From contig NZ_CP059735.1 of the NCBI RefSeq assembly GCF_000948975.2, positions 3,162,001-3,226,000 on the forward strand: 64,000 nucleotides of DNA. Direction: 5' to 3'. Of this stretch, positions 4,301-23,177 are shown piece after piece (position 1 is the stretch's first letter; each line of letters begins with the position of its first letter). The notes under the pieces are model-generated. The model saw nothing but the letters and a program-made list of their open reading frames with translations, searched no databases and was not told the DNA's origin. The DNA comes from Thalassomonas actiniarum (GTDB lineage Bacteria; Pseudomonadota; Gammaproteobacteria; Enterobacterales; Alteromonadaceae). Both the position numbers and the translations under genes were made by a program.

Positions 4301-4445
4301 CAAGTCTTTCCTAACAGGGGAAGCGGTCATTTTAGTTATCGGGGTTAGGCGAGTATACCGGTGGGAAAGGTGTAAATTCAAATGGAAATAATGGTGAGGT
4401 ACAAGCGTGGGCTTGTTTGCTTAGGCTTTTGGCTGCAGGCTTAAA

Positions 4446-5974: not shown

Positions 5975-6097
5975 TCGCCATAGTGGCTCACCAGGCGATA
6001 ACACAGCTTAATTCCGGGTTAGACGCGGATGGGGCATTTAGGTAATATGCTGGCTGATGCCGTTTTATTTTTTCCTGTAATTTAGAGTCTTACCTTG

Positions 6098-7141: not shown

Positions 7142-7200
7142 GGGTTAAGACTCTGGTTAATAAAACAGTGAATCACGATAAACGGATATAAGATAAGGCT

Positions 7201-7983
7201 ATGCTGACTGATTACCAAACCATATTGATCGTTGACGATGAACCGGCCGCTCGGCGTAAACTGGAAAGCATGCTGGCGAAAACCTGCCGCTTTGAACAAT
7301 TGATCCAGGCCTGCGACGGCGATGAAGCGGTGGAAAAAATCCGCCAATATCAGCCGGAGCTGGTGTTTATGGACATACAAATGCCGGGCATGAACGGTTT
7401 GCAGGTGGCGATGCATACCAGGGACGAGCATTATCAGTTGATCCTGGTGACCGCTTTTGATAATTATGCGATAGAAGCTTTTGATACCCATGCCGTAGAT
7501 TACCTGCTTAAACCGGTGACTCTGGCCAAACTTAACCAGAGCCTGGAAAAGGTGGCGGCCTTGCAGCAGCGTATCCCGGTGGCGCATCTGCAGCAGCTGG
7601 CGGATAAAATTTACGGGCAAAAAGACGAGCAGCAGCTGGCGGTCAGAAAAGGGGAGGCGACGGTGATCATTAACGCCTCGGAGATCTGTTATCTGGAAGC
7701 ATTAAGCGGCTACTGCCGTATTGTGTTAACCCTTAAGGGCCAAAAAAATCACAATACCGATTCTGTGCTCAGCGATGCCCCGCTGGAGTTTATGCACCAG
7801 CAGCTGGATCAGGAGCAGTTCTTACGGGTGCACAGGAAATATGTAGTCAACAGCGAGCAAATTTTTGCCTATTACAGTGTAATGCGGCGTATGTATCTAA
7901 AAGTCAGGGACTTTTCTGATGTGGCTATTCCAGTTTCCCGCCGTAATGCTCCTTTGATCAAAGGCCGTTGGCAAACGGTGTGA
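7201..7983 (+). CDS. LytTR-family response regulator
   Basis: The partner regulator of the LytS-like kinase, 260 aa. The receiver domain has the acidic pair VDDE (residues 11-14), phospho-acceptor Asp58 (ELVFMDIQMPG) and Lys in DYLLKPV. After a linker, the LytTR DNA-binding domain occupies about residues 145-255 (ICYLEALSGYCRIV, FLRVHRKYVVN). The ATG has AAGG 5 bp upstream. An inverted-repeat terminator follows. Targets are not evident; the DUF2141 gene upstream and the FadL porin downstream are the nearest candidates. Confidence 0.93.
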   Translation: MLTDYQTILIVDDEPAARRKLESMLAKTCRFEQLIQACDGDEAVEKIRQYQPELVFMDIQMPGMNGLQVAMHTRDEHYQLILVTAFDNYAIEAFDTHAVDYLLKPVTLAKLNQSLEKVAALQQRIPVAHLQQLADKIYGQKDEQQLAVRKGEATVIINASEICYLEALSGYCRIVLTLKGQKNHNTDSVLSDAPLEFMHQQLDQEQFLRVHRKYVVNSEQIFAYYSVMRRMYLKVRDFSDVAIPVSRRNAPLIKGRWQTV

Positions 7984-7991
7984 CCGGCTAC

Positions 7992-8031
7992 AAGCTGTGC
8001 TTTGCCGAATAAAAAGGGGGAAGCACAGCTT
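7992..8031 (+). terminator. Rho-independent terminator after the LytS/LytTR pair
   Basis: A perfect 11-bp inverted repeat (AAGCTGTGCTT / AAGCACAGCTT) with an 18-nt loop, starting 9 bp after the regulator stop and followed by TTATT. Confidence 0.7.
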
Positions 8032-8210
8032 TATTCCACTGCTGATAATTAGTTTATTCGATAATAAGCTCACTTTGATTGTGCTCGTGTTATTTCTTTA
8101 TTTTTACCGCTAAAGCTGGCAAATGTACCATTGAGCCGATCCCCCCTGGCTTGTTTTTCCCCCTGTGTTTACCTTGGCTGTGTTGTCCCTTGCCGTGAAA
8201 AGGAAAATAA

Positions 8211-9452
8211 ATGAATATGAAAAAAACAGCCCTGGCGCTGACCCTCAACCTGTTGGCTTTTGAAGCATATAGCGCCGCTTTCGCCCTCAACGAGCACAGC
8301 GCCTCCGGCCTTGGCCGGGCATTTTCCGGTGAAGGGGCGATTGGTGATAATGCTGCGGTACTGGCGAGAAACCCTGGTGCTATGACCATGTTTAGTCAAG
8401 CTGAATTTTCTGTGGTAGGCACTGCCATAGGACCGGACATTTCCCTTGAAGGCACTATTAATGACGAGCTGGATGAAGATAGTATCGCCCCCGATGCTTT
8501 GATCCCGGCGCTGTATTATATCCAGCCGCTTAATAAAAACCTTGTTGTCGGACTTGGCGCTTTTTCTAATTTTGGCTTAGCCACCGAATTACCCGACGAT
8601 TATCCGGCCGGGCAACTCGCCGGAGAAACCTCTCTGACCACAATAAATGTCAATGCCAGCGGTGCCTATCGCTTTAACCGGCACTTCAGCCTGGGGCTGG
8701 GAGTTAACCTGGTGTATGCCGACGCCACCTTGATCAGGCATTTTGGCGCTAACCCCTACGGGATAAGCCAGGAAACAGAAGCGGCCAATATGACCGGGGA
8801 CGATATTGCCTATGGCTATAATGTCGGAGTTTTGTATGAAATTAACAGCAATCACCGGATTTCACTGGCCTATCGCAGTGAGGTTGATTTGATCTTAAGC
8901 GGCGATTATTCCAATGATCTGCCGCTTTCATTTGGTGGCCTGGCAGGTGAAACCCTGGCGGGTGAGCTGGAAATTACCTTACCCGACATTGCAGAGTTAT
9001 CCGGCTTTCATCAGTTGAGCGATAATCTGGCCCTTCATTACAGTGTGCAGTGGACCGGTTGGAGCAGTTTTGAGCGACTGGAAGCTTATGCCGAAGGGAT
9101 AGAAAGCCCGGTATTTGAAAAAGATGAATATTTTGAAAACTCGGTGCGTTCGGCCGTCGGTATCAGCTATAACCTGCAGGATGTGCTGACCCTCAGGGCA
9201 GGGCTTGCCTATGATGAAACCCCGATAGAGCAGGCCTACCGTTCGATTTCCATTCCCGACAGTAATCGCATCTGGTACAGCACAGGCATGACTTATCACT
9301 TTAAAAATGCCTCGTCTTTTGATCTTGGCATGAGCTTTATTAAGGGGGAAGAAGTGGAGTTTACCGAAACTGATGATTTGGGCCAGGCCTGGCAATTTAC
9401 CTCAAACGGGGATGCAACCTTAATGTCGGCTCAGTATAACTATAGGTTTTAA
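8211..9452 (+). CDS. FadL-family outer-membrane transport protein
   Basis: A 413-aa outer-membrane beta-barrel of the OMPP1/FadL/TodX family, which admits long-chain fatty acids and other hydrophobic compounds. It has a signal peptide (MNMKKTALALTLNLLAFEAYSA). The family N-terminal hatch motif follows (NEHSASGLGRAFSGEGAIGD), as does NPGAMTMF. The rest alternates amphipathic strands and ends in an aromatic residue (NYRF), as outer-membrane barrels do. AAGGAAAA precedes the ATG. Monocistronic by context: a terminator lies upstream and a 250-bp gap downstream. Substrate cannot be told from sequence. Confidence 0.93.
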   Translation: MNMKKTALALTLNLLAFEAYSAAFALNEHSASGLGRAFSGEGAIGDNAAVLARNPGAMTMFSQAEFSVVGTAIGPDISLEGTINDELDEDSIAPDALIPALYYIQPLNKNLVVGLGAFSNFGLATELPDDYPAGQLAGETSLTTINVNASGAYRFNRHFSLGLGVNLVYADATLIRHFGANPYGISQETEAANMTGDDIAYGYNVGVLYEINSNHRISLAYRSEVDLILSGDYSNDLPLSFGGLAGETLAGELEITLPDIAELSGFHQLSDNLALHYSVQWTGWSSFERLEAYAEGIESPVFEKDEYFENSVRSAVGISYNLQDVLTLRAGLAYDETPIEQAYRSISIPDSNRIWYSTGMTYHFKNASSFDLGMSFIKGEEVEFTETDDLGQAWQFTSNGDATLMSAQYNYRF

Positions 9453-9501
9453 CCTGGGGTCTGCTGAATTGACAAATAAGGGATATTTCTAACAAGCAAT
9501 A

Positions 9502-9517
9502 CTTTTTGGCCAAAAAG
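9502..9517. repeat. Perfect 16-bp palindrome
   Basis: CTTTTTGGCCAAAAAG is fully self-complementary, with no loop, which is unlike a terminator. It lies 50 bp past the porin gene and about 190 bp before the TOMM kinase gene, so it could be a dimer-binding site. Confidence 0.35.
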
Positions 9518-9589
9518 ATAATTTTTGTACAAGAATTGAGGGGAAAATGAATGGTTAAAAAAGCCTAATAACATTAAATAGATATCTGA

Positions 9590-9618
9590 TTGAAAGTCAT
9601 GAAAACATAGTGATACAC
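9590..9618 (+). promoter_or_regulatory. Candidate sigma-70 promoter of the TOMM operon
   Basis: TTGAAA, a 17-bp spacer and ATACAC preceded by TG. The -35 is good and the -10 is weak. It lies about 90 bp before the kinase start codon. By-eye match only. Confidence 0.3.
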
Positions 9619-9704
9619 TCAAAGCCTGTTTAGTGAATGCAAGCGTGGCTAACCTTAATAAAATTATATAGGGCGCTTGCTGTTTGAAGCTTCAGGATAG
9701 TGGT

Positions 9705-12700
9705 ATGACAATAACAACAATAAATACACTAGAAGCAGACTTGGGCTTTGTTTCCGATGCCTATCGTCTGGTCCGGAAAATAGGCCAGGGAGGCTTTGGT
9801 CAGGTTTATCTGGCAAAACAACTCAATACCAACCAAGATGTTGCCATCAAGTTCTTATCGGTCAGCAGCGATTTCGATGACGCCAAGAAAAAGCGTTATA
9901 TTGAACGTTTTGATCGAGAAACCCTATTATGCAGCCGCCTGCAACACCCCAATATTGTTCGTTTGCTGGACAAAGGCTGTTGTCACGACAATCTGCTTTA
10001 TGCCGTGTTTGAATATGTCGACGGTAAAACCCTTAAAGAGACCCTTTCAGAGTCCGGTGCCTTATTGCCGGTAGATGCCGCCGCCGTGATGGGGCAGGTA
10101 CTTGATGCATTGGCCCATGCCCATGAACAGGGGGTGATTCACCGGGACATTAAACCGGCGAATATCATGCTGACCAAAGTTGGCGCGAAAATTCATGCCA
10201 AGGTATTGGACTTTGGTATCGGCACTCTAGTCAATGAAGTGCGCCAGCTCGATTACAAAAGCATTACCTTGACCCAGGAAACCCTGGGAACACCTTCCTA
10301 TAGTGCGCCTGAGCAGTTACGGGGAGAGCCGCCGACACCTAAAACCGATATTTATGTCTGGGGTCTGGTCTTTATCGAATGTTTAACCGGGAAGCCTGCC
10401 ATTTCCGGTACCAGCCTGGCATCTGTTTTCCATAAGCAGTTAAGTCAGTCGAATGTGCCCTTGCCACCTTCACTTGCCGGACACAGTGTCAGTGCATTAT
10501 TGCGCCGGGTACTCAATAAAAAAGCCGGGGAAAGGGCAAGTAATGCTGCCGAGTTATATCATGCATTTCACCAGTTGAATTTCTCTACTTTGGTAGGAGA
10601 TCTTACTCAAAACACCGACCATCATTTTTCAACGGACAATACCTTAGTGGTGCAGCCGGGGGACAATGAAACCCTGATCAATGATACACAGATCAATGAC
10701 AGCAGTGTTGTACAGGCCACATATGCCAGTTTAACCGAACGTAAGCAAATTACGGCATTAGCGGTTGTATTAAATGTCAAAGCTATCGGAGATAGCGAAC
10801 CCGACGGCGAGGTGGTGGATGCAATACACAGAGATCAAAAAGCCCAGTGCATTGATACCGCCGTACGTTACGGCGCTTTCCATGTGGGCAGTTTAGGCAA
10901 CACCCTCTTGTTTTATTTTGGTTATCCTGTGGTCAGTGATAATGACGGACGGTTATGTGCCCGAACTGCGCTGGAAATTAGCAGTAAACTCAGTCAGCGA
11001 AGTTCACTGTTAAGGCAAAACCAGGGGATTGAAGTTAGGGTTCATATGGGGATGCATACCGGGATTGTGACTACTTATGCCGATGCTACACCTGAAGGGG
11101 ATACCACTAATATTGTCCTGGATCTTGCCCGCCTGGCGGAGAAAAACCAGGTGCTGGCGACACAAAGCAGTAAAACTTTACTGGAGAGTTATTTGACCTT
11201 TCAGCCACAACAAGCAGTGTGTATGGGGGTTAAACCTGAGCCGGTTGCTCTTTATTCACTTGTTGGTGAGCGACAGGTAGAAGCCTTTGGCTTTTTGCGG
11301 GTCAATAAAAATAACCATGATTTTATTGGTCGTGAACAAGAGTTGTTCACTTTGGGACAGTTACTCAAAGCTCAAGCAAATGTTGATAATCGCATTGATA
11401 CCGAGCCTGCACTGTTGAACAGGTCTGTGCATGTTTATGGGGAAGCAGGGATCGGCAAATCCCGTTTAGTCTTTGAGTTGAGGAGTTTAGCTGCAAGTTA
11501 TCGTCATTTCGTGGCCCAGTGCTTGCCGGAGCATAAAAATAATGCCCTTTATCCGGTTTTAAACTTAGTCAAATATAAATATTCGCTTGATTCTTTGACC
11601 GCAGGCGCTGCGACAGCAAAGCTTCATCGTGAACTTAAGCATAGTGCAACGCAAGTAGGGCAAGAAATGGCGCAAGTACAGGATGCACTGGTGATTTTAT
11701 GCTCCTGGTTAGCTTTGCCTTTACCGGAAGGTGTTCAGGGTAAACCGCTGAGTCCCGATGTGCAAAAAGATATTTTATTTAAGGCCTTAATCACACTGCT
11801 GCTTAGCCGGGAAACGATCGGCAATAGAGATAAGATGCAACCGGTTTTATTTTTATTTGAAGATTTGCATTGGGCGGATCCTACAACAATAGCCTTTATT
11901 GCTGAGCTTAGCAGTGCAAGCCTGGGGGAAAATGAGGTCTTCATCAGCACTTCGCGTCAGCCTTTGCCACAAACGTTAAGTCACAGTGGCTTTGCATCTA
12001 TAGCCCTGACGAAGCTAAGTCAGGAAAAAACTGCTGAGTTTGTCTTTAATCTGTTTGATAAGCAGCAGGTATCGACAAAACTGCTTGATGTGGTTGTCAG
12101 CCGCACCGATGGTATTCCACTGTTTATTGAAGAACTGGTGAATATGCTAAAACAAAAGGGCTTGGTTCAGCATTTAAACGGTATAACCGACTTTATCAAG
12201 CCGGATAATATCAACGAGGTACCGGGCAGTTTACGTGACTCGTTACAGCAAAAACTTGATACCTTAATTTATGCCAAAGAAACCGCTCAGTTGGCGGCAA
12301 CCATTGGCCGTGAATTTGATTATGCACTGCTTGCGGCTGCTTCTAACCACAGTGCTGCCCAGCTACAAACTGATTTAAATGAGTTAATAGAAGCCGATTT
12401 AATTATTTTACAACGTAAGGTTGCAGGTAATAGTTATATCTTTAAGCATGCCCTGGTCCGGGATGCTGCATATGAAAGTATGCTAAATGATAAACGTATG
12501 GCCGCCCATAATAATGTGGCCGGGGCGTTTGTCGATAGTTTCCCTGATTTTAGCAAAAAGAATCCTTTCGTTATTGCCAGTCATTACGCTAAAGCCGGTA
12601 ATGATGAAACAGCTGTTACTTTCGGTATCGATGCGGTAGTACTGCAAATAGAGAAGTCTGCCAATGATGAAGCCTACTCTTATGCCAATCTTATCCTGCC

Positions 12701-13916
12701 CTGGGTGAAGAACATTTCTTGTGAAGTGAAACAGATCAAAATTGAGTTAAACCTGTTAGATATCATTTTGCCTGCGGTGATGAGCTTAAGTGGTTATGGC
12801 GGGGATGAGGTAAGCAAAATAAGTCACCGGATAGAAGCATTAATTGACCAGCTCGAACGAATGCCGGGAGCAAAGCTTGATGAGGGGTACACTGAACTTA
12901 CCAATAAGGTTGAATGGTCTTTGTTCTTAAATTCTCATTACTCTTCTCAAAGAGCACAAACCATTGAAGTGGGAAATCGCATTATTGCCAGGGCAAGAAA
13001 AGAAAGGAATCGGCAGCGTGAAATGGTGGTGCTTACCCATCTGGGACAGGCTCATTTAGTGGACGGTAATTTAAAAGCGTCTTTAGATATGCACAATGCT
13101 TCATTGCAAATGTATAGCGAAGCATTGGATAAGGGGATTTCTGCTGAATATGGAACAGACCCTAAGGCTCAAAATTTATCCATGCTAACCCTAACTTATA
13201 TCCACTTAGGCATGCCCGAGAAAGCACTGGAGAGCGTAAATAAAGCATTAGCCTACTCTGAGGTTATTGGCCACGATGTTTCGATTACTTTTGCTCATTT
13301 ATTTAAGGCGCTTTATGCGTATTTTATGAATGATCGCGAGAGCGTTATCACGACAGTACAAAGATATGAACTAAGTCATGGTGATAAAAAGGAGTTGGTT
13401 TGGATCAATACCTTTTTATACATGCTTTATGATTGGGCATTATATAAGACAGATTTTGCGGAACTAAGTATCAAGGACCAGCTGGAGTCGGGGCAATTGT
13501 TTGCCTTAGCCTGGTATGAACCTTCTTTAGCTGATACTTACCTGGAGTTGAAGCAATATGATAAAGCGATAAACTTGATGGAAAACTCTTTGCAGCGCAC
13601 TAAAGCAAATGGTGAATATGCAGCATTACCTTTTGTATTGAGTAGTTTGGCTAAATGTTATTATGTTGTAGACAAGACACTTTCTCCCAGAGTCGAACAA
13701 ATGTTGAATGAATCCCTTCGTTATGCCCGGGAGCAAAAGGCAATCTTTTTTGAACTTCATTCGCTTGTGTATTATTACCCGTTAATTCAGGATAAAACTA
13801 AGAAAATGCAAGTGCAGTCAGAGATTAACATGATTGTTAATGGCTCAGATGAAATGAAAGATACAGCGCCATACAGAAAAGCCATGGAATATCAGGCAGA
13901 GTCTTTATGCACCTAA
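9705..13916 (+). CDS. TOMM-system Ser/Thr kinase - cyclase-homology - AAA ATPase - TPR fusion
   Basis: A 1403-aa cytoplasmic signalling protein. Residues about 20-290 are a Hanks-type kinase: GQGGFGQVYLAK loop, Lys49, HRDIKPAN with catalytic Asp148, and metal-binding Asp169 in DFG. Residues about 345-525 look like a class III nucleotidyl-cyclase homology domain (GSLGNTLLFYFG, VHMGMHTGIV). An ATPase module follows with Walker A GEAGIGKS (579-586) and Walker B ending at Asp720 (LFLFEDLHWAD). The C-terminal 400 residues are helical TPR-like repeats. The order and length match the TOMM kinase/cyclase fusion family known beside TOMM precursors. The ATG at 9705 has AGGA upstream; an earlier in-frame TTG is weaker. 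It overlaps the dioxygenase gene by 10 bp. It probably regulates the cluster, since no biosynthetic domain is visible. Confidence 0.92.
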   Translation: MTITTINTLEADLGFVSDAYRLVRKIGQGGFGQVYLAKQLNTNQDVAIKFLSVSSDFDDAKKKRYIERFDRETLLCSRLQHPNIVRLLDKGCCHDNLLYAVFEYVDGKTLKETLSESGALLPVDAAAVMGQVLDALAHAHEQGVIHRDIKPANIMLTKVGAKIHAKVLDFGIGTLVNEVRQLDYKSITLTQETLGTPSYSAPEQLRGEPPTPKTDIYVWGLVFIECLTGKPAISGTSLASVFHKQLSQSNVPLPPSLAGHSVSALLRRVLNKKAGERASNAAELYHAFHQLNFSTLVGDLTQNTDHHFSTDNTLVVQPGDNETLINDTQINDSSVVQATYASLTERKQITALAVVLNVKAIGDSEPDGEVVDAIHRDQKAQCIDTAVRYGAFHVGSLGNTLLFYFGYPVVSDNDGRLCARTALEISSKLSQRSSLLRQNQGIEVRVHMGMHTGIVTTYADATPEGDTTNIVLDLARLAEKNQVLATQSSKTLLESYLTFQPQQAVCMGVKPEPVALYSLVGERQVEAFGFLRVNKNNHDFIGREQELFTLGQLLKAQANVDNRIDTEPALLNRSVHVYGEAGIGKSRLVFELRSLAASYRHFVAQCLPEHKNNALYPVLNLVKYKYSLDSLTAGAATAKLHRELKHSATQVGQEMAQVQDALVILCSWLALPLPEGVQGKPLSPDVQKDILFKALITLLLSRETIGNRDKMQPVLFLFEDLHWADPTTIAFIAELSSASLGENEVFISTSRQPLPQTLSHSGFASIALTKLSQEKTAEFVFNLFDKQQVSTKLLDVVVSRTDGIPLFIEELVNMLKQKGLVQHLNGITDFIKPDNINEVPGSLRDSLQQKLDTLIYAKETAQLAATIGREFDYALLAAASNHSAAQLQTDLNELIEADLIILQRKVAGNSYIFKHALVRDAAYESMLNDKRMAAHNNVAGAFVDSFPDFSKKNPFVIASHYAKAGNDETAVTFGIDAVVLQIEKSANDEAYSYANLILPWVKNISCEVKQIKIELNLLDIILPAVMSLSGYGGDEVSKISHRIEALIDQLERMPGAKLDEGYTELTNKVEWSLFLNSHYSSQRAQTIEVGNRIIARARKERNRQREMVVLTHLGQAHLVDGNLKASLDMHNASLQMYSEALDKGISAEYGTDPKAQNLSMLTLTYIHLGMPEKALESVNKALAYSEVIGHDVSITFAHLFKALYAYFMNDRESVITTVQRYELSHGDKKELVWINTFLYMLYDWALYKTDFAELSIKDQLESGQLFALAWYEPSLADTYLELKQYDKAINLMENSLQRTKANGEYAALPFVLSSLAKCYYVVDKTLSPRVEQMLNESLRYAREQKAIFFELHSLVYYYPLIQDKTKKMQVQSEINMIVNGSDEMKDTAPYRKAMEYQAESLCT

Positions 13917-14704
13917 AGAATCTGCAAGAAAGTCTTTCAGACAATAAAAAAGCTCAATATGAAAGCAATGGTTTTCATATTGAGTCTGAAAAAATTATAC
14001 CTGAAGCTGTGTTATCTTCAGCCATGGCAGGAATAAAACGAGTTGCTAGCGGAGAATATAATACCGGTCTTGCTCCCTGGGGGAAAATCGGTAACAGTGA
14101 GCAGCTGCAAAGAACCGCTCAGATACATTTGGCCGATCAGGACATTTTTAATTTAGTTACTCAACCGGCTATCGGTAAAGTAGCAGCACAGATAACCGGT
14201 GCCAATGAAATCAAAGTTTGGGGAACTCAGCTTTATAGTAAACCGCCACAATTAGACACTCAGGCAAATGTCGGTTGGCATACCGACTATCAGCATATGC
14301 CTTTTTTTCGTGACGGTGTTATCACTGCCTGGTTGCCATTAATTGATGTCAATGAGAACTCGGGAGCGATCACTTATATAAGAGGATCGCATCAATGGCA
14401 AAATGCCGCTCCATACCTCAATGCTGCGATACAGGATCTGGGGAGTGTAAAAAGTCATTTTATCAGGGCTAACAAGGCTTATTCCTGGTGTGAAGTTACG
14501 GCAACGATGGCTGCAGGTGGTATTTGTTTTCATCATAAGGACATGATCCATGGCAGTAGTGCGAACCAAACGCCTGTTTACCGTCATGCCATCGCCATAG
14601 GCTTGCTGACCGGGCAGGCTGAAATTGATACCAAGGCAAATGATTATGGCTACCGTGCTGTCCTGGACAATCGGGATTTTTGTCCGGTAATTTATAGTCA
14701 ATAA
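13907..14704 (+). CDS. Phytanoyl-CoA dioxygenase-family Fe(II)/2-oxoglutarate oxygenase (TOMM cluster)
   Basis: A 265-aa non-haem iron oxygenase. The facial triad is visible: His125 and Asp127 in GWHTDYQHM and distal His215 in DMIHGSSAN, with the oxoglutarate-binding Arg likely in YRHAIAIG. It starts inside the last codons of the kinase gene (ATG at 13907, 10-bp overlap), so translation is probably coupled. The precursor gene begins 32 bp after its stop. The position suggests hydroxylation or another oxidative tailoring of the peptide, or of a pathway small molecule. Such oxygenases are not part of the minimal TOMM set, so this role is inference. A second family member lies at 62.6 kb. Confidence 0.88.
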   Translation: MHLKNLQESLSDNKKAQYESNGFHIESEKIIPEAVLSSAMAGIKRVASGEYNTGLAPWGKIGNSEQLQRTAQIHLADQDIFNLVTQPAIGKVAAQITGANEIKVWGTQLYSKPPQLDTQANVGWHTDYQHMPFFRDGVITAWLPLIDVNENSGAITYIRGSHQWQNAAPYLNAAIQDLGSVKSHFIRANKAYSWCEVTATMAAGGICFHHKDMIHGSSANQTPVYRHAIAIGLLTGQAEIDTKANDYGYRAVLDNRDFCPVIYSQ

Positions 14705-14736
14705 CCTTTTCTAAGAAGAAAAAATAGGAGAAAAAC

Positions 14737-15234
14737 GTGAGTAATGAAGATATTCGTTCGTCAGTTGGTGCTGAGCAGGGTGACCCTAGTACACTAAGCA
14801 ATATGGAAGCCATTCAAGATTGGCAGTTAGCCTGGTCAAGGCTAGTTTCATATGCTTGGGAAAACTGGAACGATGCAGAAGTGATGAAAAGCCTTCTTGC
14901 TGATCCGCATCATTATTTGAAACAGTTTGGTTATCAAGGCCAATTCGATACCACAAAAATTAAAGTGGTATTGGAAGGTAACGGTGCACCGGTAAACCTG
15001 GAACTTAATGAGTGGGATAGTGAGCAAAGAGCCGGTTATCAATCACCTGACGTCAAACCGGCGGGTGAAGAAAGTGTCGAGCCTCTGACCAATGGTTGGA
15101 ACAGCGCACATGAGAATAACCAGCTTGCCGGTGCCCTTGTTGTGGTATTGCCTAAACCACCGGAGAAGGATCAAACATTGGCGTTGGCAGATTATATGGC
15201 GATTAGTAACTATCAGCCATTTACCTGTACTTAA
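14737..15234 (+). CDS. Putative TOMM precursor peptide with nitrile-hydratase-like leader
   Basis: A 165-aa peptide preceded by AATAGGAGAAAAACG. Residues 32-80 have the nitrile-hydratase-alpha-like leader pattern: a W-rich helix (AWSRLVSYAWENW), then LLADPHHYLKQFGY (53-66) and a short beta segment (KIKVVLE). A polar linker (about 90-128) leads to a hydrophobic stretch ending LPKPP and then the tail TLALADYMAISNYQPFTCT. Cys164 is the only cysteine in the whole protein and is the penultimate residue, flanked by Thr163 and Thr165. These are the likely heterocyclisation sites. The layout agrees with the BMA_0021-type TOMM precursor family, which accompanies kinase-cyclase fusions and YcaO proteins. 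There is no obvious Gly-Gly cleavage site. The modification itself is inferred from the neighbouring genes. Confidence 0.8.
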   Translation: MSNEDIRSSVGAEQGDPSTLSNMEAIQDWQLAWSRLVSYAWENWNDAEVMKSLLADPHHYLKQFGYQGQFDTTKIKVVLEGNGAPVNLELNEWDSEQRAGYQSPDVKPAGEESVEPLTNGWNSAHENNQLAGALVVVLPKPPEKDQTLALADYMAISNYQPFTCT

Positions 15235-15339
15235 TATAAATTAACCGCCTTAGGGTGTTCGAGATCAAGTTCACCCTAATTATTTCCTGCGAAACTAGAC
15301 ACATATCACACTCCTAACCGAACCGGCTAATAATAAATA

Positions 15340-16494
15340 ATGAAGTTTAAAATAATTGATTGTGACCGTCATGTCATTGAACCCAGCTTTTTATGGCAAG
15401 AATACGCCCCAAGTGAAGTTTTTAAAAACACCCCGGTATATTTAAAACAAGATACGCCAGAGTCCCGTAGTGAAAGAGTTGCACGGCTAGGGGAAGAAGC
15501 GGATATAGCATTACCGCCACAACTTATGATCGGCTCTGTGCCGGTGTTGAATAACTGGCATGAGAGCAATCAGATAGCTTCTGCACATATTAATCAAAAC
15601 AGCCAGAAACAAAGGTTTGATGCAACACTCCCCCATACCCAGATAGAGACAATGGACACTGCCGGGATCGGTCGGGCACTAATGTTTCCGACTTTTGCCA
15701 TGCTGGTAGTCAACCACTCACAAATTAGCCCGGAGACATCCTATGCTTACGCCAGGGCCTACAACCACTGGTTGAAAGATTATATCAATTATGATCCTAA
15801 AAGGCTTATCGGCGTCGGTTTGGTCAGTCGCCATGACCCTGATAATATGTGCCGGCAAATAGAAGAAATTGCTTCTTTTGGCTGGCATTGTATTACTTTA
15901 AGGCCTGAGGTTATCGCCGGCAGGGAACTGGGGCATGAAGACTATGAAGCGTTCTGGCAATTATGTGAAAAGAAAAATATCACCGTAGCTTTTCATGGTG
16001 GCACACATCTTCACGGGCCAACAGTTGGCTCAGAGCGGTTCAGTTCGAGGTTTGCCTTGCATGCCTGCTCGCATCCGATGGAAATTCAGATGGCTTTTCT
16101 CTCCCTGTTAGAATCAGGAGTGCTGGAAAGATACCCCAAGTTAAAGTTTGCTTTTCTTGAGGCCGGTTGCTCCTGGATCCCTCACTGGCTATGGCGATTA
16201 GATAATATCTGTTACCCGGAATTCCCGGCTTTAATCAAGAAGAATATCCGTATGCTGCCATCTGAGTATTTTAAAAGGCACTGCTGGACTACCTTAGAAA
16301 TTGGTGAACCTTGTCTTAAAGCTGTAGTTGATATGATAGGTCATGAAAATATTCTCTTTGGCAGCGACTTTCCTCATCCGGATCACCTGCATTTTGATGT
16401 GGGAGAAATAGCCAAGGAATGCGATGAATTAACCGCAGAACAATTACAAGATATTTTAGAGGTCAATCCTCAAAATTGTTTCAGCCTGGATTAA
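15340..16494 (+). CDS. Amidohydrolase-family (amidohydrolase 2) metal-dependent hydrolase
   Basis: A 384-aa TIM-barrel hydrolase of the amidohydrolase-2/ACMSD-like superfamily. Signature metal ligands are visible: the DxH near the N-terminus (DCDRHVIEP, residues 7-14), His in VAFHGGTH, and the late GSDFPHPDH block with the catalytic Asp. Length is typical. The gene lies between the precursor and the YcaO gene with gaps of 105 and 43 bp, all on one strand, so co-expression is likely. In this setting it could trim or hydrolyse the modified peptide, or act as a C-C or amide hydrolase on a tailoring product. No specific substrate can be assigned. The ATG at 15340 lacks a strong Shine-Dalgarno. 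Confidence 0.88.
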   Translation: MKFKIIDCDRHVIEPSFLWQEYAPSEVFKNTPVYLKQDTPESRSERVARLGEEADIALPPQLMIGSVPVLNNWHESNQIASAHINQNSQKQRFDATLPHTQIETMDTAGIGRALMFPTFAMLVVNHSQISPETSYAYARAYNHWLKDYINYDPKRLIGVGLVSRHDPDNMCRQIEEIASFGWHCITLRPEVIAGRELGHEDYEAFWQLCEKKNITVAFHGGTHLHGPTVGSERFSSRFALHACSHPMEIQMAFLSLLESGVLERYPKLKFAFLEAGCSWIPHWLWRLDNICYPEFPALIKKNIRMLPSEYFKRHCWTTLEIGEPCLKAVVDMIGHENILFGSDFPHPDHLHFDVGEIAKECDELTAEQLQDILEVNPQNCFSLD

Positions 16495-16537
16495 TGGCGC
16501 TGGCGAACTTTTTTAGAATAATAAATTTGGCAATAAA

Positions 16538-18670
16538 GTGAAGACTTTAGATAAAAATATATTGGCCTGGCATCCGAGGTTTCAGGTTTCTTTCTGGCAA
16601 GAGCTGGGGGTTGTTTTAATCAGTGAAAATGAATACCTTTTTCTGCCTGATAACAAATTCCCCTATATGCAGGCCATAAATGGTAAACGAACGGCTGATG
16701 AAATAGTGCTGGGGCAGGGGGAGCCGGGTAAAAGTGCGATCTTCTTTTATCAAATCAGTCAATTACGCCAGCAAGGCTACTTGGTTGATGCTGACGATGA
16801 AATTCACCGTCGTTACCAAAGGCATAGCGTCGACAATTTTCAGCAGTTGGGCTTAAATTCAGCAGTAGAAATGATCAATTTATCTGCGCTAGACAGAGTA
16901 ATGTGCAAGCTCTGGGCTGATATGATAGAAACAGCATTAACAGACCTTGGCTATCCGCTGACTGTTATATTGGTGGATGACTTTTTAGAACCGCGTTTAA
17001 TAGAGGTGGTAGCAAGTCTACCGGCTTATTGCATTATTAAAGTCACAGGAGAAAAAATCTGGATCAGTCCAGTTTCAACACCAGATAAAGTGCTTAATTG
17101 GCCAAAATTACAGCAGCAATTGTGGCTAAACCAACCGGTACGTAATCTGGTGGCAAGATTATATCCGCAGCAAGCGCATCAATTACCTTTTCTTCTTGAT
17201 AGGCCCCTGAGCCGCGAAAATATCCGGCAACTAAATATTTTACTTACCGGACAATGTGTTGCTAAAAATGAAGAACTTATTGTGCTGACATTATCCAGCA
17301 ATGAGTTTGAGTATCATCCGGTCAATCCATATTATGACAGCGAGCATGATTTTTCTGCCCAAATAGCAAGTCCTGTAGAACTAAAGACCTGCCCGGTATT
17401 GTTTGATCAAGATGGCGGTTGCCGCAACATTAGTCCAGCACAAACTCTGAAAAAGCTCACCCCGTTGATTAGTCCGGTAACCGGGGTGATCACGCATATC
17501 GAAGAGCTTAAGTCTGAAGAAAATCAGCCGGTAAAAACATATCGAACGGCTTTTTTCAAAACCCCGGCACTCTCTCAACAGGGGGCTGTAAATGAAAGTT
17601 TTGTGCAGGTCTGTATGGGGAAAGGGGTCTCGACAACGCAGTCTAAAGTCAGTGCCTTATGCGAGACCATAGAGCGCTATGCCGCCTTATATCAGGGGGA
17701 TGAACCACTTCTGCTGTCCAGGCAGTCACAACTTAGCCAACGAAGTTATGGCCCGGGACAGTTAGTCCCTTATAGCGAGTTGCAATACCGCTACTTTGCA
17801 GATGAAAGCCATCCGGACTTTAGTCTTAAACAGGCGGCAACTCCTTATCTTGACTCAGAAATTCACTGGTTACCCGCCTGGTCACTATCCCAAAGAGAAC
17901 AGGTTTATCTTCCCTTAACGGCCTGTTTTGCCAACCTTCCCTTTGACGATGAGCAATTCGGACGCTGGCATTCCAATGGTTGTGCTGCGGGTAACACCTT
18001 GGAAGAGGCGGTTTTACAAGGGCTATTTGAATTGATTGAGCGGGATGCTAGCGCTATTTGGTGGTATAACCAGACCAAGGGCGCTCAATTTGATTTGGAT
18101 AAAATTCCTGCAAGTAATTTACAAAAATTGCAGGATACCTTATCGGTCAGCCATAAATTTTGGGTTCTGGATATTACCACAGATATTGGTGTACCTGTTA
18201 TGGTTGCCATAGGCCAAGACCTGAAGACTAAGGGGTATAGTTTAGGTCTAGGTTGCCACTTACAGCCTGAGCTGGCAGCTCAAAGGGCTTTAACCGAACT
18301 TTGCCAGCTTATTCCTATTCGTGACCAAAACGGGGCGCCGTTTGATTTTGATGCCATTGCTGAAGGTGAATATCTGCATCCGGATATAAACAGAGCAGCA
18401 ATACCGGCTTTTATACAGCCTTGTGGCGATATCAAAGAGGATATTGAGAATATGGTGGCTCGTTTACACGCTCTGGGTTATGAAACTTTAGTTGTGGATT
18501 ATAGTCGCCCCCATTTACCAATTAAAACCGCCAAGGTTTTTGTTCCGGGTTTATGCCATATTTGGCCGCAATTGGCTAATGTTCGTTTATATCAGCTGCC
18601 TGTTCAGTTAGGTTGGTTGCAGCAAGTAAAAACTGAAACAACAATAAACCCGCAAGCTTTGTATATTTAG
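16538..18670 (+). CDS. TOMM cyclodehydratase: leader-binding/E1-like domain fused to YcaO
   Basis: A 710-aa fusion expected to install azoline rings by ATP-dependent backbone cyclodehydration of Cys/Ser/Thr. The first ~90 residues look like a leader-recognition (RRE-like) docking segment, residues ~90-290 like the degenerate E1-like partner, and ~320-700 are YcaO. YcaO nucleotide/Mg-binding motifs are present: Ser372-x3-Glu376-x2-Glu379-Arg380 (SALCETIER) and Glu498-x2-Glu501-Arg502 (ELIERD), and a further acidic helix near RALTELCQL. The C-terminus ends QALYI without the proline-rich tail of classical McbD-type enzymes. The start codon is GTG. No flavin dehydrogenase is adjacent, so products may stay azolines. 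Confident as a YcaO fusion; the substrate is inferred to be the 14.7-kb precursor. Confidence 0.92.
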   Translation: MKTLDKNILAWHPRFQVSFWQELGVVLISENEYLFLPDNKFPYMQAINGKRTADEIVLGQGEPGKSAIFFYQISQLRQQGYLVDADDEIHRRYQRHSVDNFQQLGLNSAVEMINLSALDRVMCKLWADMIETALTDLGYPLTVILVDDFLEPRLIEVVASLPAYCIIKVTGEKIWISPVSTPDKVLNWPKLQQQLWLNQPVRNLVARLYPQQAHQLPFLLDRPLSRENIRQLNILLTGQCVAKNEELIVLTLSSNEFEYHPVNPYYDSEHDFSAQIASPVELKTCPVLFDQDGGCRNISPAQTLKKLTPLISPVTGVITHIEELKSEENQPVKTYRTAFFKTPALSQQGAVNESFVQVCMGKGVSTTQSKVSALCETIERYAALYQGDEPLLLSRQSQLSQRSYGPGQLVPYSELQYRYFADESHPDFSLKQAATPYLDSEIHWLPAWSLSQREQVYLPLTACFANLPFDDEQFGRWHSNGCAAGNTLEEAVLQGLFELIERDASAIWWYNQTKGAQFDLDKIPASNLQKLQDTLSVSHKFWVLDITTDIGVPVMVAIGQDLKTKGYSLGLGCHLQPELAAQRALTELCQLIPIRDQNGAPFDFDAIAEGEYLHPDINRAAIPAFIQPCGDIKEDIENMVARLHALGYETLVVDYSRPHLPIKTAKVFVPGLCHIWPQLANVRLYQLPVQLGWLQQVKTETTINPQALYI

Positions 18671-18884
18671 GGAATATTTTTGCTTGCAGGCTCTTTACCG
18701 GAACAGGCATAGGCTAATGAAAGCTGAAGCTATGATGTTAAGTTTGGGAAGGCTGTATAAGACCAAGTTAAAATAAAAGTGCTGGCTCTTTTGTTAAAAT
18801 TTGTCGTCAATACCGTCAAAAGTCAGTAAACTTTTATCGAACTAATTTAAATAACAGTCTGTGTAAGGATTCAAAGGAACTCAG

Positions 18885-19826
18885 ATGGCGATATTACTCA
18901 ATCTTAACACCCAAGATGAAGTGAATCTGTTAGTACAGCATGTTTTCGGCCGCCATCGGGGCGCAACCAATACGGAATTAACCAATCTGGACGCTTCACG
19001 TTTGCACGCCACTATTCTATGGGACGGCGAACACTGGTTATTGCAAGATAGCAGCACCAACGGTACTTTCGTTAACGGTAAGCTTGCCCCTAAAGGCACA
19101 AAAATGCCTTTGTCATTGGATGATAAACTCAATTTTGGCAGTCTGCAGGCCGAAACCTGGCAACTGCTTAATCTTGATGCCCCCAAAAGTATGCTGGTGC
19201 CGCAAACACCGGGACTGAAGCAGCTTATGCTTGAAGATATTATGGTACTGCCCAGTGAAGAGTCTCCCGAAATTACCTTGTATCAAAATACCTGTGGCAA
19301 CTGGGTTTGTGAAAGTGCGGCCGGTATTTCTGAGTTAAAAAACGGCGATTTGGTGGGGGCGCATGAGCATATCTGGCGTTTTGTTGAAACCAAACCCAGT
19401 GAGGCGACCCGGGTGGTTAGCGGTAATTACCAGCAGTTGACCCGGTTGGGCATGACTTTTGATGTCAGCCAGGATGAAGAGCATGTTGCCTTGACGGTGC
19501 AGATGGGAGAACACCTGATAAATCTGGAGCAGCGTAATCACCATTATTTATTGCTGCTGTTGGCCCGTCAGCGCCTGACCGATAAAGAGGCAGGTCTGAT
19601 CAAAGCCGATCAGGGCTGGCTTGATAAAGAAGTCCTGGGCAAGATGCTTAAACTCAATGAAAATCATATCAATATCCAGATCTACCGTTTCAGAAAACAG
19701 CTGATCAGTGCTGCGCCTCAGTGCCTGGCATTGCCGCAGGCCATTGAGCGGCGCTCGGGAGAAATTCGCCTTGCCTGCGACAGCATAGAAATTAACGGCG
19801 GTATGCAGTTATCGGCATTTAATTGA
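18885..19826 (+). CDS. FHA-domain protein with C-terminal winged-helix-like region
   Basis: A 313-aa cytoplasmic protein. Residues about 20-90 form a forkhead-associated domain that binds phosphothreonine: Ser38-Arg39-x-His41 and Ser57-Thr58-Asn59-Gly60 (QDSSTNGTFVNG) are intact. The last ~90 residues (WLDKEVLGKMLKLNENHINIQIYRFRKQL) resemble an OmpR/SARP-type winged helix, so it may bind DNA. A good Shine-Dalgarno (AAAGGAA) precedes the ATG. It lies 214 bp after the YcaO gene on the same strand and downstream of the Hanks-type kinase cluster, so it is a natural phospho-dependent reader or regulator for that kinase. This link is inference. A stem-loop follows the gene. Confidence 0.85.
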   Translation: MAILLNLNTQDEVNLLVQHVFGRHRGATNTELTNLDASRLHATILWDGEHWLLQDSSTNGTFVNGKLAPKGTKMPLSLDDKLNFGSLQAETWQLLNLDAPKSMLVPQTPGLKQLMLEDIMVLPSEESPEITLYQNTCGNWVCESAAGISELKNGDLVGAHEHIWRFVETKPSEATRVVSGNYQQLTRLGMTFDVSQDEEHVALTVQMGEHLINLEQRNHHYLLLLLARQRLTDKEAGLIKADQGWLDKEVLGKMLKLNENHINIQIYRFRKQLISAAPQCLALPQAIERRSGEIRLACDSIEINGGMQLSAFN

Positions 19827-20702: not shown

Positions 20703-23177
20703 TTAACTCGGGTTTCTTGCCGCTGTTTTTGGTTGTGCTTTTAAAGCCATGCGCTGCAAGGTTTCAGCGGTAATATCGACAATATTGAGTACGCCTTCCA
20801 CTTTAGCCAACTCGTCTTTGATACCGTCGATGCGATAGCGGGAATAGGTCTTTAATCCGGCAATGCGGTCGTCGATAAACTGGCAATCAACTTCCGGCGT
20901 TTTCAATAGCTCAAGCTGCAGTACGTAAACTTCACCGCGGTTACGGGCATTACTTAAAAAGATCTCTCTGAGCTTAGGGGAGGTCAGCTCCGATGAAAAT
21001 TTGCTGATGATCTTGATTTCATCCTTGTTTTTGTTATCGACAAAAATAAATAACCTGGATGTCAGCGGCTGGTGCTTATGGCTGAGGCATTTAAACTGGG
21101 TCGATTGCATGATGTCATTGAGCGGCGAATTTAAAATCGGATAAAGGTTAAAATCGGTATTGCCCTGGCCGGGCAGCGCCTCGTTAGTCCGCTTTTTCAC
21201 CGGCTCTGCTGCTTTATTGGCCTGTGCTTTGTTTTTGGCTATGCTTTTCGCCGAACATACCGACAATAACTGGTTTAATGCCGATTTATTCCTGTGCGTG
21301 GCTAAACGCGAGGCCTGGTAACGGCTTTTTTGCTTCGATAAAAACACCAGGTTAAGTTGGCCGTGTTTGGTGTACAAGCGGCATAAACCTTCCGAAAGAC
21401 CTTTGTTTTTGGTCGGCGTTTTATCCACCTGTTGGTCGACATAATCTTTAAGCAAGTGAAAGAAGTTCTGGTTATCGATATTGTGTTCAAGCGAAGCGGA
21501 CTTTAAATGTAAAATGGTTTTCGATTCATTGATGGCCACTATCGCAAACGGACGGGAGCTGCCATCTTCCGGTGTTTTCCCCGGCAACTCTATGGTCAGC
21601 AAATCTCCCGATTTGGCGGTAATGGCGGACTCTAATTCCACCTGCAGTCCGCGCACCGAGACATTTTTGCTGTAGCCGATATAGCGGCTGTCATTTTTAA
21701 TGACCCTTAGCTGCATTTTATAGTCGTAACGGGCTTCTTTGCGCTTGGAAATAAACTTCACCGGAATAATATCCGTCGCTCCCGACTGGCCCGCCACCAT
21801 AAAGCGGCGCAATTGCTGCAAATCCTTCGAGCTGGCGGAAAAAGCTTTTGCCTGATAATCTGCCAGCATCTCCTCGTGGGTGATATCTGTGATGGCGCCG
21901 CAAAAACGCAGCTTTTGCAGCCTTTCTTTGGCTATCGGCGCCAGGCCGTCGGCTTCAAGGCCCAACTGATCAAAGCGGCTGCTGATAATGGCCAGCTGCA
22001 GTTTAAATACGCGCAAACTTTGATACTTCAATCCCAGGGCGATAAAGGCGGGTAACAGCCCGGTTTGCTCAAGCTCTTGCTCGGTGGCGACAAAATAAAG
22101 GCGGCTGTTTTGTTTTACCAGGGTAAAACCGTACAAAGCCGTGGTAATGCCCGATTTATTTTGTTGCAGCAGCAGTTTAATGCGCTTGGGGGTTAAAGCG
22201 AAGGGTAAAATGTTTTGTTTGTTCTGGTTATGCCAGTAGTCCAATGCTTCCTGGTTCCGTTCGGAAGAAAGGATATAATTGAGCTGTCCCTGGCCATTGA
22301 AAAACAGCGGCAGGGCGCTGCTTTTTGGCATATAAAGTTTTTCATAACCCTTGTTTAGCAATACCGGCTCAAGATCAGAGGCGTCTACCCGGTTAAACAC
22401 TTTTTGAGACTTGATAAAAGTGGTTAAAAACTCATCCAGCTTGGCATTAGAGCTGGTACGCAATGCCCGTATCCAGGTTTTTTCGTCATTGCTGTCAACA
22501 GACACAACTTTATAATTGACAAACTTTTCCAGTATTTCGCCGACATAATTTTTGGCAATTTCGGCAAACCGTATTTTAAATTCCTGACCTTTGGCGAGCT
22601 TGGCCTCTTCCGGCAATAAAAAACGGATACCGACGGTGGAAATATCTGCCGTAAAAGTGGTCAGCTCCTGCTCTTCTATGGCCAGCAGGATTTCAGAGCG
22701 GAAGTGGATACGATCTTCGTTGCGGGTACGGTAGTCGCCAAAATATAAATGCTCAACATCAAAACGTTCGAAGTTTTGCGAAGCCTGCTCCAACTCCTGC
22801 AAGACATTGGCACTGGAAGGATCTGTTGCCGCGGCAAGCACGGCTTCATAGACGCCAACCGTGTATTCGCCGCCATATTGTTTGATCAGATATTCAAAAA
22901 TATTGACGGATTTTTGATCCAGGTAATGGGTGATGTCGGCAAAAACATAATCTTCGCATGCTTCTTTGGTTTTACGGCGCAAGTCTATGGCGCGGACACA
23001 GGCGGTTTTTAACCGTGCCAGCTCCATTTTGATCAAAAAGCGGGTGCTTTTATTTTCTTTCGGCGTCAAACTGATCAAGGTGGACTCAAGCTTGTTCTTG
23101 CAGGTAATGGGAATTAACGCATTGATCAGTTTTGTATCGTATTTCTTGTTATTAGTTTGCAACATATTGGTATCCAT
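20703..23177 (-). CDS. Large protein with two PilZ (c-di-GMP-binding) domains
   Basis: An 824-aa cytoplasmic protein. A first PilZ domain near residues 165-260 shows RIHFR (RxxxR) and DISTVG (D/NxSxxG). A second near 480-580 shows RKEARYDYK and NVSVRG. Both retain residues needed for c-di-GMP binding. The N-terminal ~150 residues are helical, and the last ~240 include beta-rich regions without a named family. Large multi-PilZ proteins of this type are common in marine gammaproteobacteria and their role is largely unknown, perhaps surface attachment or motility control. It stands alone, divergent from the VWA gene over 440 bp. The start codon at 23177 has only a weak Shine-Dalgarno; an ATG four codons later is possible. 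Confidence 0.85.
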   Translation of the reverse strand: MDTNMLQTNNKKYDTKLINALIPITCKNKLESTLISLTPKENKSTRFLIKMELARLKTACVRAIDLRRKTKEACEDYVFADITHYLDQKSVNIFEYLIKQYGGEYTVGVYEAVLAAATDPSSANVLQELEQASQNFERFDVEHLYFGDYRTRNEDRIHFRSEILLAIEEQELTTFTADISTVGIRFLLPEEAKLAKGQEFKIRFAEIAKNYVGEILEKFVNYKVVSVDSNDEKTWIRALRTSSNAKLDEFLTTFIKSQKVFNRVDASDLEPVLLNKGYEKLYMPKSSALPLFFNGQGQLNYILSSERNQEALDYWHNQNKQNILPFALTPKRIKLLLQQNKSGITTALYGFTLVKQNSRLYFVATEQELEQTGLLPAFIALGLKYQSLRVFKLQLAIISSRFDQLGLEADGLAPIAKERLQKLRFCGAITDITHEEMLADYQAKAFSASSKDLQQLRRFMVAGQSGATDIIPVKFISKRKEARYDYKMQLRVIKNDSRYIGYSKNVSVRGLQVELESAITAKSGDLLTIELPGKTPEDGSSRPFAIVAINESKTILHLKSASLEHNIDNQNFFHLLKDYVDQQVDKTPTKNKGLSEGLCRLYTKHGQLNLVFLSKQKSRYQASRLATHRNKSALNQLLSVCSAKSIAKNKAQANKAAEPVKKRTNEALPGQGNTDFNLYPILNSPLNDIMQSTQFKCLSHKHQPLTSRLFIFVDNKNKDEIKIISKFSSELTSPKLREIFLSNARNRGEVYVLQLELLKTPEVDCQFIDDRIAGLKTYSRYRIDGIKDELAKVEGVLNIVDITAETLQRMALKAQPKTAARNPS

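Follow-up and report, generated by a model that had tools for sequence, protein, structure and literature searches.

Nitrile-hydratase-like precursors of the NHLP-Burk type, which belong to the thiazole/oxazole-modified microcins (TOMMs), were described with a large Ser/Thr kinase adjoining them and, in one precursor of a pair, a C-terminus of Cys or Cys-Cys (Haft 2010, PMC2887384, in the passages on which we draw). A later survey of the precursor class (PMC4603692) does not, in its main text, use the word "kinase", and the open-access literature searched yielded no function for the kinase first reported in 2010. We analyzed a related locus in a stretch of 64,000 nucleotides (nt) from the 7.5 Mb genome of Thalassomonas actiniarum (NZ_CP059735.1, positions 3,162,001-3,226,000), hereafter the window. 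It encodes a fusion of a Ser/Thr kinase, a cyclase-like domain, a STAND ATPase and a half built of tetratricopeptide repeats (TPR), followed by a precursor and modifying enzymes that we call the cassette. Like the NHLP-Burk TOMMs, as far as the 2010 account presents them, the locus has a nitrile-hydratase-like precursor with Cys at or near its C-terminus, an E1-like/YcaO fusion and a large Ser/Thr kinase. Unlike them, it combines a mosaic kinase with a cyclase-like domain lacking the first metal-binding Asp, carries a PhyH oxygenase and an amidohydrolase, and belongs to a family whose cassettes also occur without YcaO. By sequence comparison, the kinase gene is a mosaic whose TPR tail and cassette are exchanged as one block between sharp breakpoints. 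A kinase beside such precursors was noted already in 2010; the exchange architecture is the new part, and no earlier report of cassette exchange was found in the open-access literature searched.

In the agr locus of staphylococci, the enzyme, precursor and receptor are polymorphic and matched to one another, and both agr and ComQXPA of Bacillus use a membrane histidine kinase. ComQXPA resembles the present locus in that enzyme, precursor and receptor are polymorphic and mutually matched at one locus (PMC4408185, in the part consulted). Whereas those systems rely on a secreted peptide, the locus described here has a Ser/Thr kinase with a STAND ATPase and a TPR tail, shows no exporter in the window, and varies in the chemistry itself. 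At contact-dependent inhibition (CDI) and Rhs toxin loci, displaced orphan modules remain downstream. These loci share with ours a constant N-terminal part and an exchangeable C-terminal part inherited with its partner (PMC3150448, in the part consulted). Theirs is a toxin tip with an immunity gene, whereas the part exchanged here is a TPR tail with biosynthetic genes. The locus is a member of neither ComQXPA nor CDI; it is a new variant within TOMM biology.

The first ~930 residues of the fusion, comprising the kinase, cyclase-like domain and STAND ATPase, are 77-86% identical among four Thalassomonas congeners; identity to the window is 78%, 82% and 86% in the congeners designated G001, G002 and G003. 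For the TPR half, the corresponding values are 17%, 25% and 85%. G003 has the same cassette as the window (PhyH-precursor-amidohydrolase-YcaO), whereas that of G001 reads precursor-like protein-YcaO-TfuA-NmrA and that of G002 precursor-YcaO-YcaO-asparagine synthetase. DNA homology between the window and G003 is uninterrupted over the whole locus (5501-19824). Against G001 it ends at 12472, inside the kinase gene, and is back at 18870, just before the FHA gene; against G002 it ends at 12499 and is back at 18872, with matching YcaO pieces between. A TPR half that is merely fast-evolving is ruled out by the 85% identity seen with the same cassette versus 17% and 25% with others. It is also contradicted by the single paralogous kinase-TPR pair tested, which shows no break (75% versus 65%) and thus keeps 65% identity in its TPR part. 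The kinase gene of G003 is split into two overlapping frames of 386 and 1050 amino acids (aa) (L036:4956-9237), and the rest of that cluster reads through.

Named genomes were scanned with the cyclase-ATPase part, and from the best 80 of 239 loci 41 were used, being taken for true relatives (L055-L095, 40-74% identity). They span Thalassomonas, Psychromonas, Algicola, Moritella, Pseudoalteromonas, Shewanella, Marinomonas, Veronia and one uncultured gammaproteobacterium; L058 and L092 had no split kinase, and L095 had broken kinase open reading frames (ORFs) only. The kinase fusion was present in 50 of 108 genomes of Pseudoalteromonas, the genus to which genome G020 belongs. Similar kinase halves with differing cassettes were found at five Pseudoalteromonas sites as well as in Thalassomonas (site groups were set by eye from flank ORFs and DNA-checked for 13 different-cassette and two same-cassette pairs; left flanks at site D agree partly). 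In all 15 different-cassette pairs compared, homology ends 14-44 nt past the codons of an F[KR]H[AS]L motif, at 14-25 nt in 13 pairs and at 17 and 44 nt in the two Thalassomonas pairs that include the window; neither the two same-cassette control pairs nor the window/G003 pair shows a break. The two sharpest pairs have kinase halves that are 99% (L061/L062) and 98% (L090/L093) identical and TPR halves that are 25% and 23% identical, the L061 TPR half being compared over 163 residues only because the gene is interrupted. L061/L062 and L079/L083 share a related amidohydrolase and YcaO, and "different cassette" there refers to the precursor and the TPR half. At the right end the position of the breakpoint varies: homology resumes within the YcaO gene for L061/L062 and L061/L078, and no right arm was seen on the stretches compared for L063/L067, L063/L073 and L064/L066.

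For 45 pairs of loci with kinase halves of 80% identity or more, we compared cassettes and TPR halves (the pairs are not independent). TPR identity is 80-100% in the 9 pairs with similar cassettes (score at least 0.6), 17-26% in the 34 with dissimilar cassettes (score at most 0.38), and 23% and 40% in two pairs of intermediate score. A partial Mantel test on 41 loci (L055, L056, L056b and L084 out; W, G001, G002a, G002b, G003 and G020 in) gave r 0.24 for TPR versus cassette given kinase, reached by 0 of 2000 permutations, and r -0.02 for kinase versus cassette given TPR, reached by 1129 of 2000. These comparisons indicate that the TPR half and the cassette are co-inherited and that kinase halves do not follow the cassette. 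TPR matches were found in 9 of 10 variable halves scanned, and halves belonging to different cassettes share ~0.2 identity against a shuffled mean of 0.057; they therefore look like remote TPR relatives, not unrelated proteins. Pieces of other cassettes lie downstream in five loci (L057, L067, L075, L078 and L089), as expected of displacement. At L075:14373-18717, a short TPR fragment comes after two tandem cassettes and looks like the leftover of a displaced module.

Linkage alone predicts co-inheritance, as the TPR half lies between a recombination arm and the cassette; the kinase half could be no more than the left arm, with a hitchhiking TPR half that has no cassette-specific role. However, recombination should at times separate a neutral tail from its cassette, and the TPR half matches cassette type even between sites and genera (L064/L090, 51%; L061/L068, 49%; L065/L076, 48%), with all 24 pairs of TPR identity at least 0.35 having a cassette score of at least 0.32. 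We regard hitchhiking as very improbable.

The first-pass annotation had called the protein a 1403-aa kinase-cyclase-ATPase fusion. An ATG at 9705 gives that length (a longer ORF begins with TTG at 9684), and the score of 926.9 bits against TIGR03903 (TOMM_kin_cyc) lies above the curated cutoff of 705.75. Hanks-type Lys, HRD, Asn and DFG are present, and the Walker A of the ATPase part is kept, in all 44 family members (counts exclude L055, a duplicate of G002a). The cyclase part of the name did not hold up. A Pfam scan of this domain gave no cyclase match; a profile of the cyclase-like and ATPase part matches Pseudomonas aeruginosa CyaB (3r5g, E 5.7e-6), and the first metal Asp (FFSDI in CyaB) is missing in 44/44 relatives, of which 26 have Arg there. 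The second metal Asp position is D in 38, N in five, the window among them, and G in one. We reject an active nucleotide cyclase on account of the missing first Asp; the domain is probably inactive, so that the label "kinase-cyclase" misleads. In Psychromonas ossibalaenae (L056), one stretch has two kinase fusion genes that flank a short precursor-like ORF.

In class III/IV lanthipeptide synthetases, a kinase-like domain works on the peptide that the enzyme modifies. The kinase studied here may similarly be biosynthetic, phosphorylating the precursor or an enzyme while the TPR half serves as a substrate docking site. Its catalytic residues are intact, its TPR half changes along with precursor and enzymes, and its kinase domain scores against the LanL and LanKC lanthipeptide synthetase models, though far under their cutoffs. 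One kinase half is nevertheless common to cassettes of differing chemistry with unrelated precursors, no lyase or LanC-like partner is among the Pfam matches of the window genes, and the FHA association described below would be left unexplained. We consider a biosynthetic kinase quite unlikely. A STAND ATPase with a variable repeat sensor also brings to mind a defense or abortive-infection switch, in which the TPR half would sense a phage or rival and the modified peptide would harm the cell or a competitor; the cassette remnants downstream in five loci likewise recall polymorphic toxin loci. Yet all 25 PADLOC rows listed for the fusion, out of 35, are kinase models, with best stretches within residues 12-464, and the FHA, YcaO and three cassette proteins gave no PADLOC match. 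One would expect a sensor and its effector to reassort, but here they travel together, and no immunity gene was recognized in the window cassette. A known anti-phage defense system is not supported, with no PADLOC match beyond the kinase domain among the rows listed, and we give a defense role in general only a slender chance.

The window had been annotated as a TOMM cluster, a reading made to depend on ATP-binding residues in the YcaO protein and on a precursor that matches a TOMM leader family. The nearest solved relatives of the YcaO protein are the cyanobactin cyclodehydratases LynD, MusD and TruD (E 1.5e-86 to 1.8e-79), aligned over the catalytic part. The motifs GKGxxxxQSKxSxLCExxERY and SNGxAAGNTLEEAxLQGxxELxERD, which we take to carry the ATP contacts, align with LynD. 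The zinc-binding Cys of the E1-like domain are missing, the CxxC of LynD (CWDC) aligning with NWPK in the window. The precursor does match the NHLP-Burk model TIGR03795 (25.4 bits, E 1.4e-5), but below the curated cutoff of 41; it is therefore a relative of that family and not a member by the curated rule. On neither count was the cluster reading clearly refuted. Across 20 YcaO-cassette precursors of 165 to 415 aa (the window's included, the TfuA type excluded), PF[TS] occurs within the last 8 residues in 17 and Cys within the last 5 likewise in 17, which amounts to a short conserved end on very different long leaders. The window has a single precursor, not a pair, with Cys next-to-last (PFTCT). 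Judged from the families, the C-terminal Thr/Cys of ...YQPFTCT should be turned into an azoline by the predicted YcaO activity, and the PhyH and amidohydrolase enzymes would process the product further.

Although the kinase in the window lies beside a YcaO system, "TOMM cluster" proved too narrow for the kinase family as a whole. YcaO-based cassettes occur at 20 of the 41 loci (L056 and L084 are cut by a contig end and L092 is in pieces), and cassettes at another 20 are not YcaO-based: 17 are of a type designated C1 (L078 with a truncated YcaO behind it) and three are PhyH-like without YcaO. L091 ends ahead of its TfuA-type enzymes. The TIGR03903 cutoff was passed by all six kinases scanned, four with cassettes lacking YcaO (L063, L067, L069 and L090) and two with YcaO (L062 and L089). 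These counts bear on the alternative that the family names imply, a conventional TOMM bacteriocin cluster of the NHLP-Burk type whose accessory kinase is fixed and does housekeeping, with neutral turnover of the natural-product genes in the cassettes. The TIGR03903 score, the sub-cutoff TIGR03795 match and the LynD-like YcaO agree with it, as does the large Ser/Thr kinase that Haft 2010 (PMC2887384, in the passages cited above) places beside such precursors. At 20 of the 41 loci, however, the chemistry is not YcaO-based, 4/4 of such kinases scanned pass the cutoff, and a fixed kinase leaves the break at one place within its own gene unexplained; we hold this alternative to be unlikely, if still credible.

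The C1 protein is an unnamed protein of 442-567 aa with one CxxCH in 18/18 copies and, by eye, a mostly signal-like N-terminus. No confident Pfam match was found for the 16 of 18 copies scanned and no NCBIfam match for the two scanned (other cassette genes were scanned as representatives). Its AlphaFold model (predicted local distance difference test, pLDDT, 74) gave no Foldseek match (best E 0.4), and sequence leads to cytochrome P460 are weak (E 0.046 and 0.72). A small protein ending in Trp is present in the cassette of all 17 C1 loci (18 proteins in five families, grouped after their ends had been viewed, with the per-locus count made afterwards), for example at L063:12851-14847, L067:12854-15641 and L090:12858-15524. 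As background, 11 of 540 ORFs longer than 150 aa on the loci end in Trp, and 10 of these are the same proteins, leaving 1/530. C1 cassettes possibly represent a new peptide class modified at a C-terminal Trp. TfuA-type cassettes, with a precursor-like protein of 267-287 aa, also occur under this kinase family (L033:12067-16539, L087, L089, L091 and L092); the L033 TfuA matches PF07812 (E 3e-47), and a thioamide product would be expected from the family. Cassettes of Marinomonas L087 (14751-15848; PF00082, E 5e-10) and L091 carry a subtilase-family protease, a candidate leader peptidase.

In PknH-EmbR of Mycobacterium tuberculosis, a Ser/Thr kinase feeds an FHA-containing regulator. The present locus likewise pairs a Ser/Thr kinase with an FHA protein, which may act as a comparable relay. 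In a profile comparison the FHA domain matches EmbR (2fez, E 7.4e-8); EmbR differs from the window protein in domain order and family, and the DNA-binding domain here is a fold prediction only. Residues G22, R23, S38, H41, N59 and G60 are invariant in 20/20 FHA proteins, and G-R, S-x-x-H and N-G presumably constitute the phosphothreonine-binding FHA signature. In the AlphaFold model (pLDDT 86), the FHA domain is followed by a middle part rich in strands and by a strand-helix-strand terminus resembling a winged helix, and all 50 rows listed by Foldseek are FHA proteins as far as their titles tell. Of the FHA-winged-helix architecture assigned at first pass, the FHA domain stands (PF00498, E 4.3e-12), while the winged helix, and with it a C-terminal DNA-binding domain, is predicted from fold topology.

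Searches of 28 kinase-bearing genomes (covering 29 of 30 loci submitted, two of them in one genome) found an FHA homologue in every one. In 108 Pseudoalteromonas genomes (kinase E <= 1e-100, FHA E <= 1e-25), the homologue was present in 50/50 with the kinase (Fisher p 1e-12 for co-occurrence, kinship uncorrected). Whether the FHA gene lies upstream or downstream of the kinase differs between genera; in G100, which is a more remote member of the class, it is on the same strand and 75 nt upstream. Each of the four Thalassomonas genomes has a further FHA paralogue with a kinase nearby, overlapping the kinase gene in both loci fetched, with TPR repeats in the one kinase scanned. This pair is a possible simpler ancestor. 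No YcaO or precursor relative was found beside these paralogous loci (L052:6308-10499, L053:7087-11191). In Moritella L059 (17618-20795) and L060, an ABC-transporter-like ATPase is seen by eye right behind the FHA gene, and in L059 also a large membrane-protein-like ORF.

All six genes named at first pass are at their reported positions. A response regulator and a FadL-type porin come first, then the kinase fusion, the PhyH oxygenase (its start overlapping the kinase fusion stop), the precursor, the amidohydrolase, the E1-like/YcaO fusion and the FHA protein, with a PilZ protein after them on the opposite strand (Table 1). A tyrosine recombinase (PF00589, E 3e-37) lies at 3395-4381, ~5 kb upstream of the kinase and not inside the exchanged segment. 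PLSDB, checked for mobile plasmids, gave no near match to 9684-19826. Promoter-like sites were no more frequent than in shuffled sequence (21 versus 20.6) and terminator-like sites only slightly so (14 versus 10.5, sd 3.2); neither was used. The second YcaO of the genome, ~97 kb off, is a separate 741-aa protein, and the 19 kb around it showed no gene related to the kinase, precursor or FHA genes of the window.

Table 1. Features of the Thalassomonas actiniarum locus, in window coordinates.
Feature	Position	Strand	Evidence
FadL-type porin, constant left flank	8211..9452	+	PF03349 E 6.7e-124; 83-96% identity, three congeners
Ser/Thr kinase - degenerate cyclase-like domain - STAND ATPase - TPR fusion, 1403 aa	9705..13916	+	TIGR03903 926.9 bits; Pfam Pkinase, AAA_16, TPR_12
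Kinase domain, catalytic residues intact	9762..10562	+	PF00069 E 4.1e-50
Class III cyclase-like domain, probably inactive (approximate limits)	10731..11303	+	Profile match CyaB 3r5g E 5.7e-6
STAND-type ATPase (AAA_16), ends at FKHALV motif (approximate limits)	11322..12473	+	PF13191; Walker A
Left breakpoint of exchanged segment	12472..12499	.	DNA homology ends 12472 (versus G001), 12499 (versus G002)
Exchangeable TPR half	12474..13913	+	TPR_12
PhyH-like Fe/2-oxoglutarate oxygenase	13907..14704	+	PF05721 E 4.2e-19
Precursor protein, 165 aa, C-terminus PFTCT	14737..15234	+	TIGR03795 25.4 bits, cutoff 41
Amidohydro_2 family enzyme	15340..16494	+	PF04909 E 3.7e-23
E1-like/YcaO fusion, LynD-like cyclodehydratase without aligned CxxC pair	16538..18670	+	PF02624 E 2.7e-79
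Right breakpoint of exchanged segment, 13-15 bp 5' of FHA start	18870..18872	.	Homology resumes 18870 (G001), 18872 (G002)
FHA protein, predicted winged-helix-like C-terminal domain; constant part	18885..19826	+	PF00498 E 4.3e-12; 86-96% identity, three congeners
PilZ-domain protein, constant right flank	20703..23177	-	PF07238 E 1.3e-17; present in 2/3 congeners, third congener's stretch stops short

We think it somewhat probable that the locus represents one allele of a peptide-maturation system whose cassettes are exchangeable, and in which a cassette-specific TPR sensor gates a constant kinase and an FHA protein relays the output. The sequences themselves display the mosaic, its breakpoints, the co-inheritance of TPR half and cassette, the intact kinase residues, the cyclase-like domain without its first metal Asp, and the FHA homologue in every kinase-bearing genome searched; from domain knowledge we infer sensing by the TPR half, switching by the ATPase and reading by the FHA protein. 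The constant part would be the kinase, degenerate cyclase and STAND ATPase half together with the FHA protein, and the exchangeable part would be the TPR half, precursor and modifying enzymes, moving as one block. The TPR half would recognize something cassette-specific, be it the precursor, the enzyme complex or the product, and binding there would switch the STAND ATPase and release the kinase. The kinase may then phosphorylate itself, plausibly at an acidic-Thr motif in the linker between the kinase and cyclase-like domains, or another target; the motif is a candidate docking site. The FHA protein would bind the phosphothreonine and adjust transcription, probably of the kinase-cassette operon too. 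The putative phosphorylation control proposed at first pass gains support from the intact kinases, the FHA signature, the FHA homologues in 28/28 genomes and the separate FHA and kinase-TPR pair.

Several observations weigh against this scheme. Co-inheritance may be mere physical linkage, for the positional reason given above, and the Mantel effect is modest (partial r 0.24). One pair, G020/L061, combines a cassette score of 0.58 with a TPR identity of only 23%; G020 has two gene sets in tandem, and its TPR half may therefore go with the second of the two and not with the genes shared with L061. Precursors of the YcaO type resemble one another at the C-terminus, and the final peptides may as a result vary less than the TPR halves. 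The acidic-Thr motif is present in 27 of 44 proteins versus 4.5% in shuffles, as a pattern picked after the linkers had been viewed. As to the relay, an FHA homologue is also found in 24 of 58 kinase-free Pseudoalteromonas genomes, lies less than 6 kb from the kinase in just 3 of the 50 that have both, and is on the locus stretch (up to 10 kb per side) in 12 of 41 loci; neither Pfam nor PDB sequence searches linked its C-terminal domain with confidence to a DNA-binding family. Finally, no exporter was found among the window genes or the scanned cassette representatives, which fits a secreted signal badly.

A bolder extension of the exchangeable-allele scheme, which we find doubtful though worth entertaining, is a peptide-pherotype system of a new kind with Ser/Thr kinase receptors, each TPR half being private to the cell's own modified peptide. 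The whole chemistry, be it azoline, thioamide, oxygenase or a C-terminal Trp modified by the CxxCH protein, would then be swapped as an allele, while the kinase-FHA output would stay constant across marine gammaproteobacteria. A variable sensor, precursor and enzyme, matched beside a constant output, are found here as a sequence pattern in which the TPR half is the putative sensor.

The exchange pattern leads to a question open to experiment, namely whether a TPR half responds to no cassette but its own. For the relatives studied here, it suggests that "TOMM system kinase/cyclase" is a misleading name, since they often lack a TOMM and probably lack a cyclase, and that each peptide pathway brings its own sensor, as in a plug-in system. 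If so, the conserved kinase would be a socket into which many peptide chemistries can be plugged, and a guide to new classes of ribosomally synthesized and post-translationally modified peptides (RiPPs), one perhaps with substrates ending in Trp. The system would then be a Ser/Thr-kinase counterpart of the polymorphic peptide-signaling loci.

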